Origin: Pseudoduganella plicata
GTDB lineage: Bacteria; Pseudomonadota; Gammaproteobacteria; Burkholderiales; Burkholderiaceae_D
Assembly: GCF_004421005.1 (NCBI RefSeq)
Contig: NZ_CP038026.1
Coordinates: 2,294,001 to 2,358,000 of the forward strand
Reading direction: 5' to 3'
DNA: 64,000 nucleotides
The translations under genes were made by a program, and so were the position numbers. The notes beneath the pieces were generated by a model. The model saw only the letters and a program-made list of their open reading frames with translations. It searched no databases and had not been told where the DNA came from. Position 1 is the stretch's first letter, and every line of letters begins with the position of its first letter. This document shows positions 11,670-47,953 of the stretch, in pieces.

Positions 11670-12098
11670 ATGTCGATGTCCGTAGGCTCCGATAGCGGAG
11701 ACGAAGACCAGGTAATGTCAGAAATCAACACGACGCCTCTCGTGGACATCATGTTGGTTCTGCTGATCATCTTCCTGATCACCAGCCCGGTGGTCCTTAA
11801 ACTGCAGAAGATTGCTCTGCCAGAAGAGGTCAACCAGGCGATCCAGACGAAGCCGGAAAATGTCAACATCGTTGTCAACAAGGATGGCGACATCTACTGG
11901 AATCAGAAGAAAATGCGGGACACGAATGAGTTGTTCGATTTTCTGAAGGTCGAGGCAGTGAAGGTACCGCAACCGGAAGTGCACGTACGTGGCGACAAGG
12001 AAGCCAAGTACGAGTCCATCGGCCGCGTGATCTTCACGACCCAGCGCGCTGGCATCCAGAAGGTTGGTTTCATTACCGAACCGCCTGACAAGATGTAA
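11670..12098 (+). CDS. exbD: ExbD/TolR biopolymer transport protein (copy 1)
   Basis: ExbD-type protein, 142 aa, with one N-terminal membrane helix and a periplasmic domain. The segment INTTPLVDIMLVLLIIFLIT carries the conserved proton-accepting Asp just before or in the helix. It begins 4 bp after exbB, indicating tight cotranscription. A second, divergent exbD follows. Confidence 0.92.
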   Translation: MSMSVGSDSGDEDQVMSEINTTPLVDIMLVLLIIFLITSPVVLKLQKIALPEEVNQAIQTKPENVNIVVNKDGDIYWNQKKMRDTNELFDFLKVEAVKVPQPEVHVRGDKEAKYESIGRVIFTTQRAGIQKVGFITEPPDKM

Positions 12099-18137: not shown

Positions 18138-18193
18138 AAAACCGGAGCCTGTCACCGGTTTTCAAAAAAACCGGTGACAGGCTCCGGTTTTTT
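18138..18193. repeat. Paired CCGGTGACAGGCTCCGG hairpin repeat
   Basis: Two oppositely oriented units (18138-18162 and about 18167-18191). Each has the 8 bp stem AAAACCGG / CCGGTTTT and loop TGACAGGCT or its complement, and together they can fold into one long hairpin. The pair starts 20 bp after the ileS stop, between ileS and lspA. Similar units occur near 31550-31817, 34300, 38243-38301 and 47897-47953. Confidence 0.85.
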
Positions 18194-18748: not shown

Positions 18749-19966
18749 ATGGAACTGACGGGTAAAAAGATTGTCCTCGGCCTGTCCGGGGGCGTCGCCT
18801 GCTACAAGGCGGCCGAGCTGTGCCGTGCGCTGACGAAACAGGGCGCCTCGGTCCAGGTCGTGATGACGGATGCGGCGCTGCACTTCATCACCGCCGTGAC
18901 GATGCAGGCGCTGTCCGGCAAGCCCGTGTATTCGAGCCAGTGGGATCCGCGCGTGGGCAACAATATGGCGCACATCGACGTCACCCGCGACGCCGATGCC
19001 ATCGTCATCGCGCCATGCTCTGCCGATTTCATGGTCAAGCTGGCGCACGGCGTCTGCGACGACCTGCTGTCGACGATGTGCCTGGCGCGCCCACGCCACG
19101 TGCCGCTGCTGGTGGCGCCGGCGATGAACGTCGAGATGTGGACCAATCCGGCCACGCAGCGCAACGTCAACCAACTGCGCGAGGACGGCATCTGCCTCGT
19201 CGGCCCCGCCGCCGGCGAGCAGGCATGCGGCGAAACCGGCATGGGCCGCATGCTGGAACCGGAACAACTGCTGGCCGAGATCGTTGCCGCGTTCCAGCCC
19301 AAGATCATGGCCGGCAAACGCATCCTGATCACGGCCGGCCCCACCTTCGAGCCCATCGATCCGGTGCGCGGTATTACCAATCTGTCGTCCGGCAAGATGG
19401 GCTACGCCGTAGCGCGCGCCGCCCGTGAGGCCGGTGCCGAAGTCACGCTCATTTCCGGCCCGACGGCCCTTGCCACGCCGTTCGGCGTCACCCGCATCGA
19501 CGTGCAAAGCGCGCAGCAGATGATGGACGCGGTCAACCGCAGCATCGACGGCCAGCACGTTTTCATTGCCGTGGCGGCCGTGGCGGACTGGCGCGTCGCC
19601 AATCCCAGCACGCAGAAGGTCAAGAAGACCGAATCGGGCGTGCCCGTGCTGCAGTTCGAGGAAAACCCGGACATCCTGGCGACGATCGCCGCGCGCACGA
19701 CGCTGGCCGGCCATCCGTACTGCGTCGGCTTCGCCGCCGAATCGGAAAATCTGGTCGAGTTCGGCGCCGCCAAGCGCGAACGCAAGGGCATCCCGCTGCT
19801 GGTTGGCAATATCGGTCACCAGACATTCGGCGCGGACGACAACACGATCATCCTGTTCGACGAGCACGGCCATACGATCCTGCCGCGCGCGGACAAGCTG
19901 AGCCTGGCACGTCAGCTGATCTCCGAAATCTCCAAACGCATCAACAAACACTCGCTGTTCCAATAA
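18749..19966 (+). CDS. coaBC: Bifunctional phosphopantothenoylcysteine decarboxylase/phosphopantothenate-cysteine ligase
   Basis: CoaBC (Dfp) makes 4'-phosphopantetheine precursor for coenzyme A, 405 aa. The N-terminal flavoprotein decarboxylase domain shows [13 protein letters not shown], the catalytic His segment [21 protein letters not shown] and the CGETGMGRM loop with the catalytic Cys. The ligase domain starts near residue 190 ([25 protein letters not shown]). Its stop overlaps the dut start (TAATG). Confidence 0.97.
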
Positions 19967-29441: not shown

Positions 29442-30485
29442 ATGTCCGATAAATTCCTGTATTCCCTGCTTCGTCCCGCACTGTTCTCGATGGACGCCGA
29501 AAGCGCCCACCACTTCACCCTCAACAACCTCAAACGCCTGTCGAAACTTGGCCTGCTGCGCGCTGTCGTGCAGCCGCCGAAGCCGGACCCGCGCACGGTC
29601 ATGGGCCTGCTGTTCAGGAATCCCGTCGGCCTTGCCGCGGGCCTGGACAAGGACGGCGCCTATATCGACGCGCTGGCCGACCTGGGCTTCGGCTCGATCG
29701 AAGTGGGCACCGTCACGCCGCGTGCGCAGCCCGGCAATCCCCTGCCGCGCATGTTCCGCCTGCCCGCCGCGCACGGCATCATCAACCGCATGGGCTTCAA
29801 TAACGGCGGCGTCGACGCGTTTGTCGCCAACGTCCAGTCGTCGCGCTTCTACCAGAGCAAGGCCGGCGTGCTGGGCCTGAACATCGGCAAGAACGCCGAT
29901 ACGCCGATCGAGCGCGCGGCCGACGACTATCTGCACTGCCTGGAAAAGGTCTACCCATACGCCAGCTATGTGACGGTGAACATCTCGTCGCCGAACACGA
30001 AGAATCTGCGCCAGCTGCAGGGCGGTTCGGAGCTCGACGGCCTGCTGGCGCAGCTGAAGGACGCACAGGGGCGCCTGGCCGACCGGCACAAGCGCTACGT
30101 GCCGCTGGCCCTGAAGATCGCGCCCGACATGGACGGCGAGCAGGTGAAAAACATCGCGGATGCGCTGGTGCGCCACCGCATCGACGGCGTCATCGCCACC
30201 AATACGACGTTGTCGCGCACGGCCGTGGAAGGCATGCAGCATGGCGCCGAGACTGGCGGCCTGTCCGGCGCGCCCGTGTTCGAGCTGTCGAACGGCATCA
30301 TCCGCCTGCTCAAGGCGGAACTGGGCGACGCGCTGCCGATCCTCGGCGTGGGCGGCATCATGCGCGGCGTCGATGCGCAGGCCAAGATCGCCGCCGGTGC
30401 CCAGCTCGTGCAACTGTACAGCGGCCTGATTTACGCCGGCCCCGCCCTGGTGCGCGACTGCGCCGACGCCCTGCGCAAATCATAG
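29442..30485 (+). CDS. pyrD: Dihydroorotate dehydrogenase (quinone), class 2
   Basis: 347 aa membrane-associated flavoenzyme of pyrimidine synthesis. FMN-site segments [32 protein letters not shown], and ATNTTLSR and GVGGIM are visible. The amphipathic N-terminus (residues 1-30) is the quinone-binding part typical of class 2. It follows bpt by 51 bp and precedes the aldo/keto reductase gene by 8 bp. Confidence 0.96.
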
Positions 30486-30493
30486 GAGAACCC

Positions 30494-31540
30494 ATGGAAA
30501 AAATCAGACTCGGGCGCACCGACCTGGAAGTCTCGCGCATCTGCCTCGGCACGATGACGTTCGGCGAGCAGAATTCGGAAAGCGACGCGCACAGCCAGCT
30601 GGACCTGGCACTGGCGCGGGGCATCGACTTCATCGACACGGCGGAAATGTATCCCGTCATGCCGAGTGCGGCCACGCAGGGATCGACGGAGCGCTTCATC
30701 GGCACGTGGCTGAAGAAATCCGGCATGCGCGACAAGGTGGTGCTGGCCACGAAGGCGGCCGGCCCCAATCCGAACACGCACTGGATCCGGGGCGGCAAGC
30801 AGAATTTCGACGAGGCGAACCTGCGCGCGGCGGTGGAAACCAGCCTGCAACGGCTGCAGACGGACTACATCGACCTGTACCAGCTGCACTGGCCGAGCCG
30901 CAACGTGCCGATCTTCGGCGCCACCGCGTTCGAGCCGCAGAAGGAGCGCGCCAGCGTCGCCATCGAAGACACGCTGGCCGCGCTGGGCAAGCTGGTCGAT
31001 GAAGGCAAGATCCGCCACATCGGCGTATCGAACGAGTCGTGCTGGGGCGTCTGCGAATTCATCAAGCAGGCCGAGACGAAGGGACTGCCGCGCATCGCGA
31101 CGATCCAGAACCTGTACAACCTGACGGCGCGCCATTTCGAAACCAGCCTGCTGGACGAAACGTGCTTCCGCGAGGACGTCAGCCTGCTGGCCTACAGCCC
31201 CCTCGCCTTCGGGCAGCTGACGGCCAAGTACCACGACAATCCGAAGGCGCACGGCCGCCTGACGATCTTCCCGCCGACGTGGAGCCCGCGCTACCTGCGT
31301 CCTTCGGTGCTGTTGGCGGTGGCGCAATACACGCAACTGGCCCGCGACAACGGCCTGACGCCGACGCAACTGGCGCTGGCCTGGTGCTACTCGCGCCCGT
31401 TCGTCGCCTCGACCATCATCGGCGCCACCACCCTGGCGCAGCTGGAAGAAAACATCGCCGCGTACACCGTCAGGCTGCCGCAGCATGTGCTCGAAGCGGT
31501 GGACGCGATCCACGCCAGTCTGCCGAACCCTGGCCAGTAA
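30494..31540 (+). CDS. Aldo/keto reductase (Tas-like)
   Basis: 348 aa NADPH-dependent oxidoreductase. The segments SRICLGTMTFGEQ, DFIDTAEMYPV, LATKAAG and YIDLYQLHWPSR contain the conserved catalytic Asp and Tyr (DTAEMY), and the C-terminal SRPFVASTIIGATTLAQLEENI binds the cofactor. Cotranscribed with pyrD from its spacing. The 96 bp encoding its last 31 residues plus stop recur as a diverged copy at 31615-31710. Confidence 0.9.
   Translation: MEKIRLGRTDLEVSRICLGTMTFGEQNSESDAHSQLDLALARGIDFIDTAEMYPVMPSAATQGSTERFIGTWLKKSGMRDKVVLATKAAGPNPNTHWIRGGKQNFDEANLRAAVETSLQRLQTDYIDLYQLHWPSRNVPIFGATAFEPQKERASVAIEDTLAALGKLVDEGKIRHIGVSNESCWGVCEFIKQAETKGLPRIATIQNLYNLTARHFETSLLDETCFREDVSLLAYSPLAFGQLTAKYHDNPKAHGRLTIFPPTWSPRYLRPSVLLAVAQYTQLARDNGLTPTQLALAWCYSRPFVASTIIGATTLAQLEENIAAYTVRLPQHVLEAVDAIHASLPNPGQ
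31445..31540 (+). repeat. 3' end of aldo/keto reductase gene, source copy of duplication
   Basis: The last 96 bp of the gene, including the stop codon, are repeated 170 bp downstream (31615-31710) with six substitutions. The similarity continues past the stop into two hairpin repeats. Confidence 0.9.
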
Positions 31541-31546
31541 GCCGCG

Positions 31547-31817
31547 CGAAAACCGGAGCCAGGCTCCGGTTTGATCTACCCGCGCAGAAACCGGTGACAG
31601 GCTCCGGTTTTTCTGAAGAAAACACCGCCGCGTACACGGTCAAGCTGCCGCAGCATGTGCTCGAAGCGGTGGACGCGATCCACGCAAGTCTGCCGAACCC
31701 GGGGCAGTAAGCTGCGCGAAAACCGGTGCCAGGCTCCGGTTTGATCGACGCCGCGCGGAAACCGGTGACAGGCTCCAGTTTTCCGCTCGTGGAAACAGGA
31801 GCCTGTCACCGGTTTTT
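31547..31817. repeat. Cluster of five CCGG hairpin repeats
   Basis: Units at about 31551-31572, 31588-31613, 31718-31742, 31758-31783 and 31791-31817. Two have GCCAGGCT in the loop, three have TGACAGGCT or its complement, and one stem is mutated. They surround the duplicated gene tail; the first two and the next two belong to the 170 bp tandem repeat. Confidence 0.8.
31615..31710 (+). pseudogene. Duplicated 3' fragment of the aldo/keto reductase gene
   Basis: 96 bp fragment encoding EENTAAYTVKLPQHVLEAVD and the rest of the C-terminus, and ending in TAA. It has 6 differences from the gene copy: four at third codon positions, plus Ile to Thr and Arg to Lys. It lacks a start or promoter of its own and lies between intergenic hairpins. 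Confidence 0.85.
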
Positions 31818-31924
31818 CTGGTAACTCATCTATATACGAAATATTCATAAGCAAAGCGCGTAGCAATCGTTCGTGCGCGGGTGGCGGGGCCTTAAGATAG
31901 CGGCATCGATAACCTTTTCCGCTA

Positions 31925-34279
31925 ATGATGAGCACACGCCACAAGAATTCCCTCCTCGTCTTCTCGCTGATCGCCGCCGCCACGGGGCCTGCCGTTGCGC
32001 AGGAAATGCCGGCCGCCGGCGACATGCAGACCGTCGTGGTCACCGGCACCTACGCTAAAAACCGCCGCAGCGCCGATTCCGAGTCGCCCATCGACATCAT
32101 CGGCGCCAAGGAGCTGCAGGCCACCGGATCGGCCGAGCTGGCTTCCGTTCTCGCGCGCGTGCTGCCGTCGATGAACTTCCCGCGCCCGTCCGGCGCCGAT
32201 GCGTCCGATGCCGTGCGTCCCGCGCAGTTGCGCGGCCTGGCGCCGGACCAGGTGCTGGTGCTCGTCAACGGCAAGCGCCGCCACACGTCCGCCGTCATCA
32301 ACGTCAACGGCACGTCCGGCCGCGGTTCCGCGCCGGTCGACCTGAACGCGATTCCGCTGGCCGCCATCGACCATATCGAAGTGCTGCGCGATGGCGCGTC
32401 CGCGCAATACGGGTCAGACGCCATCGCCGGCGTCGTCAACATCATCCTGAAAAAGGGACCGAAGGGTGGTGAAGTCGAAGTGGGTTACGGCGAGTACCAG
32501 GAAGGCGACGGCACACAGAAGACGATCAAGGCATCCGGCGGCTTCGCGCTGGGCGATAAAGGCTGGCTGCGCCTGGCGGCGGAAGCGGCCGACCGCGATC
32601 CGACCAACCGCGCCGGCGCCGATTTCCGCGATCCGAAGGAACCGCTGTACGGCCAGGTCACGCAGCGCTACGGCGACTCGGACACCAAGCCGCGCAACGT
32701 GATGTTCAATGCGCAGTACCAGGTAGGCGAGAACACGGACCTGTACGCGTTCGGCCAGTACGGCAGGCGCGACACGGAGGCGGCGGCCACGTGGCGCACA
32801 TCCACGCGCTCGCCCCTGTTCCCGCAAGGCTTCCTGCCGTTGCAGAACAGCGAATCGACCGATGCGTCGCTGGTGGCGGGCCTGAAGGGTGACTTCGGCG
32901 GCTGGCGCTGGGATGCCAGCGTGGACTACGGCCGCAACAGCTTCTGGCTCGACAGCGACAACACGGCCAACGCGGACCTGCTCGCGCAAAGCCCGACGCA
33001 CTTCCACCTCGGGAAGCTGACCAATACGCAGTCGGTCGCGAACTTCGACCTGGCGCGCGAGATTCCGGTCGCGGTCTTCAGCGGTCCGCTGACGGTGGCG
33101 ACGGGTATCGAAATCCGGCACGAGGAATACGAGATCGGCGCCGGCGACGAGGCGTCGTACTTCGGCGGCGGCGCGCAGGGCTTTGCCGGCTTCCGTCCCG
33201 TCAACGCGGGCAAGAACAGCCGCAGCAACCAGTCGGCCTACGTCAACCTGGAAGCGCAGGTGACGCCGAAGCTTTCCGCCGCCCTGGCAACGCGCTACGA
33301 ACACTACACGGACTTCGGCAGCACGACGTCGGCAAAGGCTTCGGCACGTTACGCCTTCAACGACAAGGTCTCGCTGCGCGGCACGGCCTCCTCCGGCTTC
33401 CGCGCACCGTCGCTGGCGCAGCAGTTCTACACGATCACGACCACCAATTTCTCCGTCATCAACGGTGTCAACACGCCGATCGAGACGGGCACGTTTGCCG
33501 TCAACAGCGCGGCCGCGCGCGCCATCGGCGCGACGCCGCTGAAGGCGGAAAAGGCGCGCAACTACAGCATCGGCCTGCAGCTCTCGCCGACGCGCAACTT
33601 CAACACCAGCGTGGACGTCTACCGCATCTTCGTGGACGACCGCATCGCGCTGTCGGCCAACATGACGCTGCCGCCAACGCTGCGCAACGCACTGGCCGCG
33701 CAGGGCGTGCAGGTTGGCGCGGGCCGCTACTTCACCAACGCCATCGACACGAAGACGACGGGCGTGGACGTCGTCAGCACGTATCGTCTGGACCTCCAGA
33801 ACCGCGACCGCATCGACTTCACGGCCGCGTACAACCACAACAAGAACGAAGTGGAAAACGTGGCCGCCAACCCGGCGCTGCTGACCGCGAACAACCTGCT
33901 GCTGATCGACCGCCAGACAGTGCTGCGTACCACGGTCGGTTCGCCGAAAGACAAGCTCAGTCTCGGCGTGGATTACACCACAAGCGTATGGAACGCCCAC
34001 GCGCAGGCGACGCAGTACGGCAAGTTCACGGTCCCGCAAAACAACCCGGCCTACGACCAGACGTACGGCCGCCAGTGGGTGCTGGACGTTTCGGGCAGCA
34101 TCAAGCTGGCGCAGAACTGGCGCATCACCGCCGGCATCGACAACCTGACGGACAGCTACCCGGACAAGACCACGTCGGCCAACAACCTGAACGTGGCCGG
34201 CATCTACCCCTACAGCATCTGGTCGCCGGCCGGGTTCAATGGACGCTACTACTATGCCAAGGTGGCGTACAGCTGGTAA
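31925..34279 (+). CDS. TonB-dependent outer-membrane receptor
   Basis: 784 aa with a signal peptide (residues 1-26, ending AVAQ). The TonB box-like segment MQTVVVTGTYAKNR is followed by a plug domain (SPIDIIGAKELQATGSAELASVLARVLPS... RGLAPDQVLVLVNGKRR... VLRDGASAQYGSDAIAGVVNI) and a 22-stranded barrel ending YYYAKVAYSW with the terminal aromatic residue. The substrate is unknown; no siderophore or vitamin genes adjoin it. The start has no strong RBS; the second ATG (31928) is possible. Confidence 0.9.
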   Translation: MMSTRHKNSLLVFSLIAAATGPAVAQEMPAAGDMQTVVVTGTYAKNRRSADSESPIDIIGAKELQATGSAELASVLARVLPSMNFPRPSGADASDAVRPAQLRGLAPDQVLVLVNGKRRHTSAVINVNGTSGRGSAPVDLNAIPLAAIDHIEVLRDGASAQYGSDAIAGVVNIILKKGPKGGEVEVGYGEYQEGDGTQKTIKASGGFALGDKGWLRLAAEAADRDPTNRAGADFRDPKEPLYGQVTQRYGDSDTKPRNVMFNAQYQVGENTDLYAFGQYGRRDTEAAATWRTSTRSPLFPQGFLPLQNSESTDASLVAGLKGDFGGWRWDASVDYGRNSFWLDSDNTANADLLAQSPTHFHLGKLTNTQSVANFDLAREIPVAVFSGPLTVATGIEIRHEEYEIGAGDEASYFGGGAQGFAGFRPVNAGKNSRSNQSAYVNLEAQVTPKLSAALATRYEHYTDFGSTTSAKASARYAFNDKVSLRGTASSGFRAPSLAQQFYTITTTNFSVINGVNTPIETGTFAVNSAAARAIGATPLKAEKARNYSIGLQLSPTRNFNTSVDVYRIFVDDRIALSANMTLPPTLRNALAAQGVQVGAGRYFTNAIDTKTTGVDVVSTYRLDLQNRDRIDFTAAYNHNKNEVENVAANPALLTANNLLLIDRQTVLRTTVGSPKDKLSLGVDYTTSVWNAHAQATQYGKFTVPQNNPAYDQTYGRQWVLDVSGSIKLAQNWRITAGIDNLTDSYPDKTTSANNLNVAGIYPYSIWSPAGFNGRYYYAKVAYSW

Positions 34280-38242: not shown

Positions 38243-38301
38243 AAAACCGGTGACAGGCTCCTGTTTTCGCATGGCGAAAACAGGAGCCTGTCACCGGTTT
38301 T
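38243..38301. repeat. Large CCGGTGACAGGCTCC inverted repeat
   Basis: Perfect 28 bp inverted repeat: 38243-38270 and 38274-38301 with loop ATG. The core is the unit AAAACCGGTGACAGGCTCC extended by TGTTTTCGC. A degenerate unit follows at about 38304-38330. It lies between the ends of the peroxiredoxin gene and the start of cysT on the minus strand, 44 bp after the peroxiredoxin stop. Confidence 0.85.
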
Positions 38302-47896: not shown

Positions 47897-47953
47897 AAAA
47901 AACCGGTGACAGGCTCCGGTTTTCCCGAAAACCGGAGCCTGTCACCGGTTTTT
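47897..47953. repeat. Paired CCGGTGACAGGCTCCGG hairpin repeat (bidirectional terminator)
   Basis: Two inverted units (AAAACCGG-loop-CCGGTTTT from 47899 and from 47928) separated by CCCG, between the convergent stops of the dehydratase gene and livF. A-runs and T-runs flank both stems, so it can end transcription from both sides. Confidence 0.85.

Follow-up and report, generated by a model that had tools for sequence, protein, structure and literature searches.

The stretch of DNA analysed here, hereafter the window, comprises 64,000 nucleotides of the Pseudoduganella plicata genome (contig NZ_CP038026.1, positions 2,294,001 to 2,358,000), and positions are counted from its first base. It includes an intact aldo/keto reductase gene of 348 amino acids on the + strand (30494..31540; open reading frame (ORF), Pfam PF00248 at E 6e-73) and, downstream on the same strand, an intact TonB-dependent receptor gene (31925..34279; ORF and Pfam). 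A match to the reductase at E <= 1e-60 is present in 57 of 60 genomes, P. plicata counted, of a genus sample that holds 74 genomes including its own, one genome per species. Between the two genes, the end of the reductase gene occurs a second time together with two hairpins of the repetitive extragenic palindromic (REP) type, and it is this tandem duplication that concerns us here.

The duplicated unit consists of the gene tail followed by the two hairpins. A first-pass annotation, made from the sequence alone, had described a unit of about 170 bp duplicated at offset 170, and the alignment confirms it: 31445-31579 and 31615-31749 form a direct repeat at that offset, identical at 126 of 135 bases, and the homology extends to 31611 and 31782 once a one-base gap is allowed (168 columns, 93%, E 1e-54). 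Tail copy 1 is the final 96 bases of the reductase gene, in frame (31445..31540, + strand). Tail copy 2 (31615..31710, + strand) is severed from the gene body and is identical to copy 1 at 90 of 96 bases; the TAA stop is present in both. The six coding differences (31455, 31468, 31473, 31516, 31531 and 31534) fall at four third and two second codon positions, the latter changing Ile to Thr and Arg to Lys, as first described. In unit 1 the tail is followed by a REP hairpin, AAAACCGGAGCCAGGCTCCGGTTT (31549..31572, no strand), and by a second one (31588..31611), directly after which the junction to tail copy 2 falls between CCGGTTTTTCT and GAAG. The counterpart of the first hairpin in unit 2 lies at 31719..31742 (no strand). 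The right end of the cluster is an inverted REP pair that makes one long hairpin (31759..31815) and has many near copies in the genome; its arms, 31759-31781 and 31793-31815, form a stem of -43.8 kcal/mol (z = -7.7). In all, a 32-nt hairpin-arm repeat occurs in five copies within 31542-31816. The first-pass annotation had carried the duplication as far as 31817; the duplication stands, but the third hairpin included in that span belongs to the right-hand unit only.

Comparison with relatives indicates where the second unit came from. In 31 relatives the 450 bases behind the orthologous gene were compared with its tail, and no second tail turned up (best score 40; P. plicata, 162). When both copies were used as blastn queries, 27 of 29 relatives matched at the end of the gene itself and two (L025 and L032) did not match; the one extra match, of 51 bases, fell within the L035 gene. 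In a tree of 14 tails (the two copies and 12 congeneric tails, 96 columns), the copies are sisters with support of 89/72, from which it follows that the duplication arose in this lineage. Which copy groups with the orthologue tails had been posed as a question at the outset; both pair with each other instead, and, as far as these sequences tell, neither is the orthologue tail. The absence of a second tail from the relatives and the sister grouping together bear out the earlier suggestion of a repeat-mediated duplication of a gene tail. Three of the six differences are derived in copy 1 and two in copy 2, and one is ambiguous. The event had also been called old. The divergence is real, but the copies are 6% apart whereas the gene body differs from that of the nearest relative by 10.6%, so the duplication is probably younger than the split from that species.

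The four nearest relatives (94 to 89% protein identity) have different hairpins behind the orthologous gene, and this intergenic spot is a site of hairpin turnover. The sequence beyond the hairpins, CTCATCTATATACGAAATATTCATAAGC, is kept in three of these four relatives, with one change in L133. At the orthologous spot, L010, L011, L133 and L134 show hairpins of GGGGACAG or GGGGTC types and of GGTGACAGGCACC type, the one in L133 having a related GGTGACAGGCACC core.

Sequence and surroundings mark the hairpins as a family of REP type, with one locus resembling a REPtron. Across 197 arms collected from the examined parts of the genome, the consensus reads AAAACCGGTGMCAGGCWCCggTTTT, that is, AAAACCGG...CCggTTTT. 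With at most one mismatch allowed, the arm pattern is found 123 + 122 = 245 times across the 5.89 Mb genome; its reversed control gives 1 + 1 = 2 matches. The arms are mainly extragenic (only 13 of 224 lie inside called genes) and cluster behind genes: an arm lies within 250 bases of 110 gene ends versus 41 gene starts, at median distances of 22.5 and 103 bases, respectively. In the 25 bases before the 197 arms neither GTAG (7 occurrences) nor CGTC (20) shows an excess, approximately 17 being expected at equal base use, and the family stands outside the GTAG/CGTC super-families. The genome has three Y1_Tnp genes, one of which, an ORF of 216 amino acids (E 2e-11), is bracketed by REPs of the focal family in opposite orientation. 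The other two (L130 and L132) have no focal REPs within about 2 kb; the stretches fetched around them contain one GGGGACAG / CTGTCCCC motif each, and these genes are possibly tied to another hairpin family. At another site, near 4134800 (L185, about 1015-1190), some ten GAAAACCGGCGA units adjoin a REP pair behind a gene stop, a run that is the REP foot itself expanded.

Duplication of a gene tail recurs at other REP sites of the genome. At least 71 REP clusters were covered, 64 as new regions and the rest inside the window or region L131. The first 100 arm matches listed, all of them exact and reaching 3.32 Mb, supplied 51 of the 71; the remaining 20, beyond 3.32 Mb, came from a similarity search with the focal region, and the REP loci there are partial. 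Other gene tails duplicated beside these hairpins, which the first-pass annotation had suggested looking for, were found in four more clear cases and two shorter ones, their genes being named from Pfam. The clear cases are rho (L170, tail identity 77/79), a glyoxalase-like gene (L176, 130/140), a TPMT-like gene (L189, 63/75) and an adenosine-deaminase-like gene (L192, 79/93 aligned); copy 2 lacks a stop in all of these except the glyoxalase-like pair. The shorter ones are a 36-base copy of the tail of a 5-formyl-THF cyclo-ligase gene (L184, score 32, seen by eye only and kept outside the counts) and an exact 28-base tail copy behind a gene without Pfam match (L297, near 19.58-19.72 kb, score 64), which lies beside a different palindrome. 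In the latter region (about 19400-19720) this second palindromic element (GTGACAACAAAGGGGTCAGGCAC ... GTGCCTGACCCC ... GTTGTCAC) stands in tandem with the tail copy. Near-identical units were not seen among the five clear pairs, only rho coming near. The layout of flank, REP doublet forming a hairpin (REPIN) and short flank in tandem is shared by the focal locus, L170 and L176, and the REPs are more diverged in L189 and L192. No tail copy reached the cut-off in relatives of the L176, L189 and L192 genes (0/18, six relatives each; best score 49, in L278), and at all three loci the copies have bases in common that the relatives shown lack. The two glyoxalase-like copies are a supported sister pair (98/98), with six derived changes in copy 2, one in copy 1 and three ambiguous. 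L198 may hold a decayed scrap of a tail, which was not scored.

The association with REPs was counted in the window, in L131 and in the regions around REPs, to which 11 sampled stretches of 20 kb and then 20 more were added. Genes were called by codon usage; longest-ORF calls picked shadow ORFs in this GC-rich genome. A tail was taken to have a REP if one lay within 250 bases, and to be copied if a copy lay within 450 bases at a score of at least 55 (at least 100 in the stricter version), cut-offs that were set after the first cases had been seen. A downstream copy was found for 6 of 109 tails with a REP versus 1 of 512 without (Fisher p = 1.6e-4), and for 5/109 versus 0/512 at the stricter score (p = 1.5e-4). 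Because some REP loci were found with the focal region as query, a bias toward multi-REP loci is possible in these figures. Duplicated gene heads were not found, either near a REP (0/40) or elsewhere (0/544). The sole match without a REP (window 11714-12098, score 58) lies in a following open frame that by eye looks like a related gene, and three weak scores of 45-46 beside REPs (window 46923, L288, L294) have the look of chance matches. The window has three further REP pairs of the focal family, at 18144..18185, 38247..38297 and 47903..47948; the last begins about 10 bases past a gene stop, and the highest score for a tail copy behind it, 46, likewise looks like chance.

Most junctions lie near the base of a hairpin. 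Counted from the CCGG in the REP arm, the copied tail starts 7 bases further on at the focal locus, and 1, 4 and 5 bases further on in L176, L192 and L189, respectively; thus the start is 1-7 bases past the arm CCGG in four of the six cases that adjoin the focal REP family. In L297 the copy begins right at the end of its other palindrome. Within the gene, the copied segment begins 28-140 bases before the stop codon ends, and these left ends have no common motif.

We consider that the second unit is probably a lineage-specific tandem duplication anchored on REP hairpins and produced by slippage or template switching, the chemistry being the weak step of this account. With REPs positioned just past gene stops, a hairpin, or a break at its base, would halt or free the growing DNA strand. 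The 3' end of that strand would re-prime about 28-140 bases upstream of the stop-codon end, within the gene tail, and tail and hairpin would then be copied a second time. Since the REPs are close to stops, a REP-anchored duplication that reaches upstream takes in a gene tail, and the gene remains intact because copy 1 is still attached to the gene body. Copy 2 would be a by-product that tends to decay, presumably one without function.

Several observations weigh against this explanation. The sister grouping of the focal copies is drawn from 96 columns and from two shared changes relative to the four nearest relatives. The junction in L184 is 15 bases past the arm CCGG (6 past an extra CCGG), and that in rho is about 45 bases past the REP arm. 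Microhomology at the junctions amounts to 0-3 bases, by eye, so that re-priming is weakly documented. When the five clear pairs are pooled, their coding differences number 8 at first, 14 at second and 28 at third positions, so that third positions hold more than a third (28/50). A constrained copy 1 can explain the excess, which mixes copy 1 with copy 2 and so is not in itself proof of decay of copy 2. One of the six counted cases, L297, adjoins another palindrome, and the comparison of tails with heads near REPs, 6/109 versus 0/40, is not significant (p = 0.19). Finally, tail copies were absent from the REP sites sampled in three congeners that share the same REP core: 0/110 in G079 (60 of 62 clusters, from 100 of 265 places listed), 0/27 in G058 (17 sites, 13 of 30 loci having been dropped as repeats of a site) and 0/26 in G016 (21 sites, 9 of 30 dropped). 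It follows that REPs alone are insufficient, or that the REPs of the congeners are younger.

The difference between P. plicata and the three sampled congeners is significant at either score (6/109 versus 0/163, p = 0.004; 5/109 versus 0/163, p = 0.010). The spacing of two-arm clusters also differs, being 38-41 bases in all 51 such clusters of G079 among the matches listed and 17-94 bases here; the wider spacing would fit an older and more reworked REP population in P. plicata. One match without a REP in G016 (L367, score 94, 1/24 of the no-REP tails) reads by eye as a neighbouring paralogous gene. In G079 a tandem array (L235, C1:1450242-1452963, about 814-1730) is built of units of about 235 bases that are 87-90% alike; three of the units contain a complete REP pair, a fourth just one exact arm, and GGGGTCAGTCCC-type hairpins are present as well. 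No gene tail was seen in it by eye, and it was rejected as a gene-tail duplication.

Among the alternatives, the strongest is that an HUH enzyme resembling the REP-associated tyrosine transposases (RAYT) nicks beside a REP. The 3'-OH set free would either serve as a primer for copying or be joined to the DNA at a second nick, this one within the gene tail. REPs of this very family lie on both sides of one Y1_Tnp gene, and, according to parts of a published study, TnpAREP enzymes cut between C and T beside REPs and at some distant sites, leaving a 3'-OH that might prime replication (PMC8266576). The focal junction (GGTTTTTC/T, the slash marking the join) fits such a C/T cut to within one base, and the left end of copy 1 reads GC/TGG. 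However, the seven junctions have no C/T rule in common, though in L189 and L192, too, the left ends are at CT, and the REPs are without the GTAG tag that known enzymes use. Tail copies are also missing from the sampled REP sites of the three congeners, an observation that would tell against the enzyme if those genomes carry it. A nick of this kind is possible but unlikely, and we prefer slippage during replication, with the hairpin as its site. More doubtful still is a broader proposal, in which the REPs, or RAYT, would be a recurrent copier of gene ends that cuts at the REP foot, the spare 3' ends would recombine back into genes, and the excess over the congeners would reflect enzyme activity and not REP age.

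The first-pass annotation had offered as one option that a homologous end took the place of the original one; such an import would have come from another strain, copy 2 being the remnant of the old end. Copy 2 is indeed slightly nearer to the nearest relative, L010 (7 differences), than is copy 1 (9), copy 1 has three derived bases to two in copy 2 with one ambiguous, and a donor of the same species is compatible with a sample of one genome per species. Against replacement, the copies are sisters among the congeneric tails, the homology takes in the REPs and the spacer past the stop, and the same architecture occurs at other genes. We regard it as very unlikely and do not retain it. Hard to sustain too, and slightly less credible, is the idea that the second unit is kept for use, for example as a back-up terminator, as an RNA element at the 3' end or as a store of gene ends available for exchange. 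The hairpins are stable, both focal units keep stop and hairpin, focal copy 2 has changed no more than copy 1, and the pooled differences favour third positions. However, copy 2 has lost the stop in the rho, TPMT-like and deaminase-like cases, and the glyoxalase-like copy 2 has changed more than its copy 1. Moreover, a simple terminator scan found none on the gene strand, and Rfam gave no match above the gathering score in 30000-32500. An assembly artefact, conceivable at short tandem repeats, has a negligible chance in a single-contig genome with copies 6% diverged and similar diverged cases elsewhere.

The kind of event is already known, since tandem REPIN clusters with flanks have been described. 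In passages of a study of P. fluorescens SBW25 by Bertels & Rainey (2011), REPIN clusters are in tandem "including the flanking sequences", the REPIN of each unit being set between a 5' flank and a second, shorter one (PMC3116915). The clusters described there resemble those of P. plicata in that REP pairs and flanking DNA are reiterated in tandem and REP clusters adjoin RAYT genes. In P. plicata, by contrast, the 3' end of a gene serves as 5' flank, the copies have diverged and there is no GTAG tag; the SBW25 passages on tandem REPINs make no mention of gene ends as the flank (PMC3116915). The location, predominantly downstream of coding regions, is like that given for GTAG/CGTC REP clusters in sections of another report, whereas here GTAG/CGTC is not in excess around the REPs (PMC3733652). 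The Y1_Tnp gene with the genome's own REPs on both sides is similar to REPtrons and RAYT loci as portrayed in parts of two papers (PMC2817692, PMC8266576), and the two further Y1_Tnp genes without these REPs nearby are unlike REPtrons. In searches of the open-licence PMC literature, we found no report of a gene end as a recurrent flank of REP duplications, with the stop lost in some copies.

These results connect a defined short repeat with the tandem duplication of small pieces of coding DNA, and a single genome offers several examples at differing divergence, some of them polarised by relatives. It thereby becomes testable whether breaks or stalls in replication are caused by REPs (or by their transposase), the predicted junction being the foot of the hairpin. 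Gene-end fragments beside REPs are likely to be by-products rather than small genes. Small local duplications thus appear to start from REPs and to leave truncated gene ends behind.
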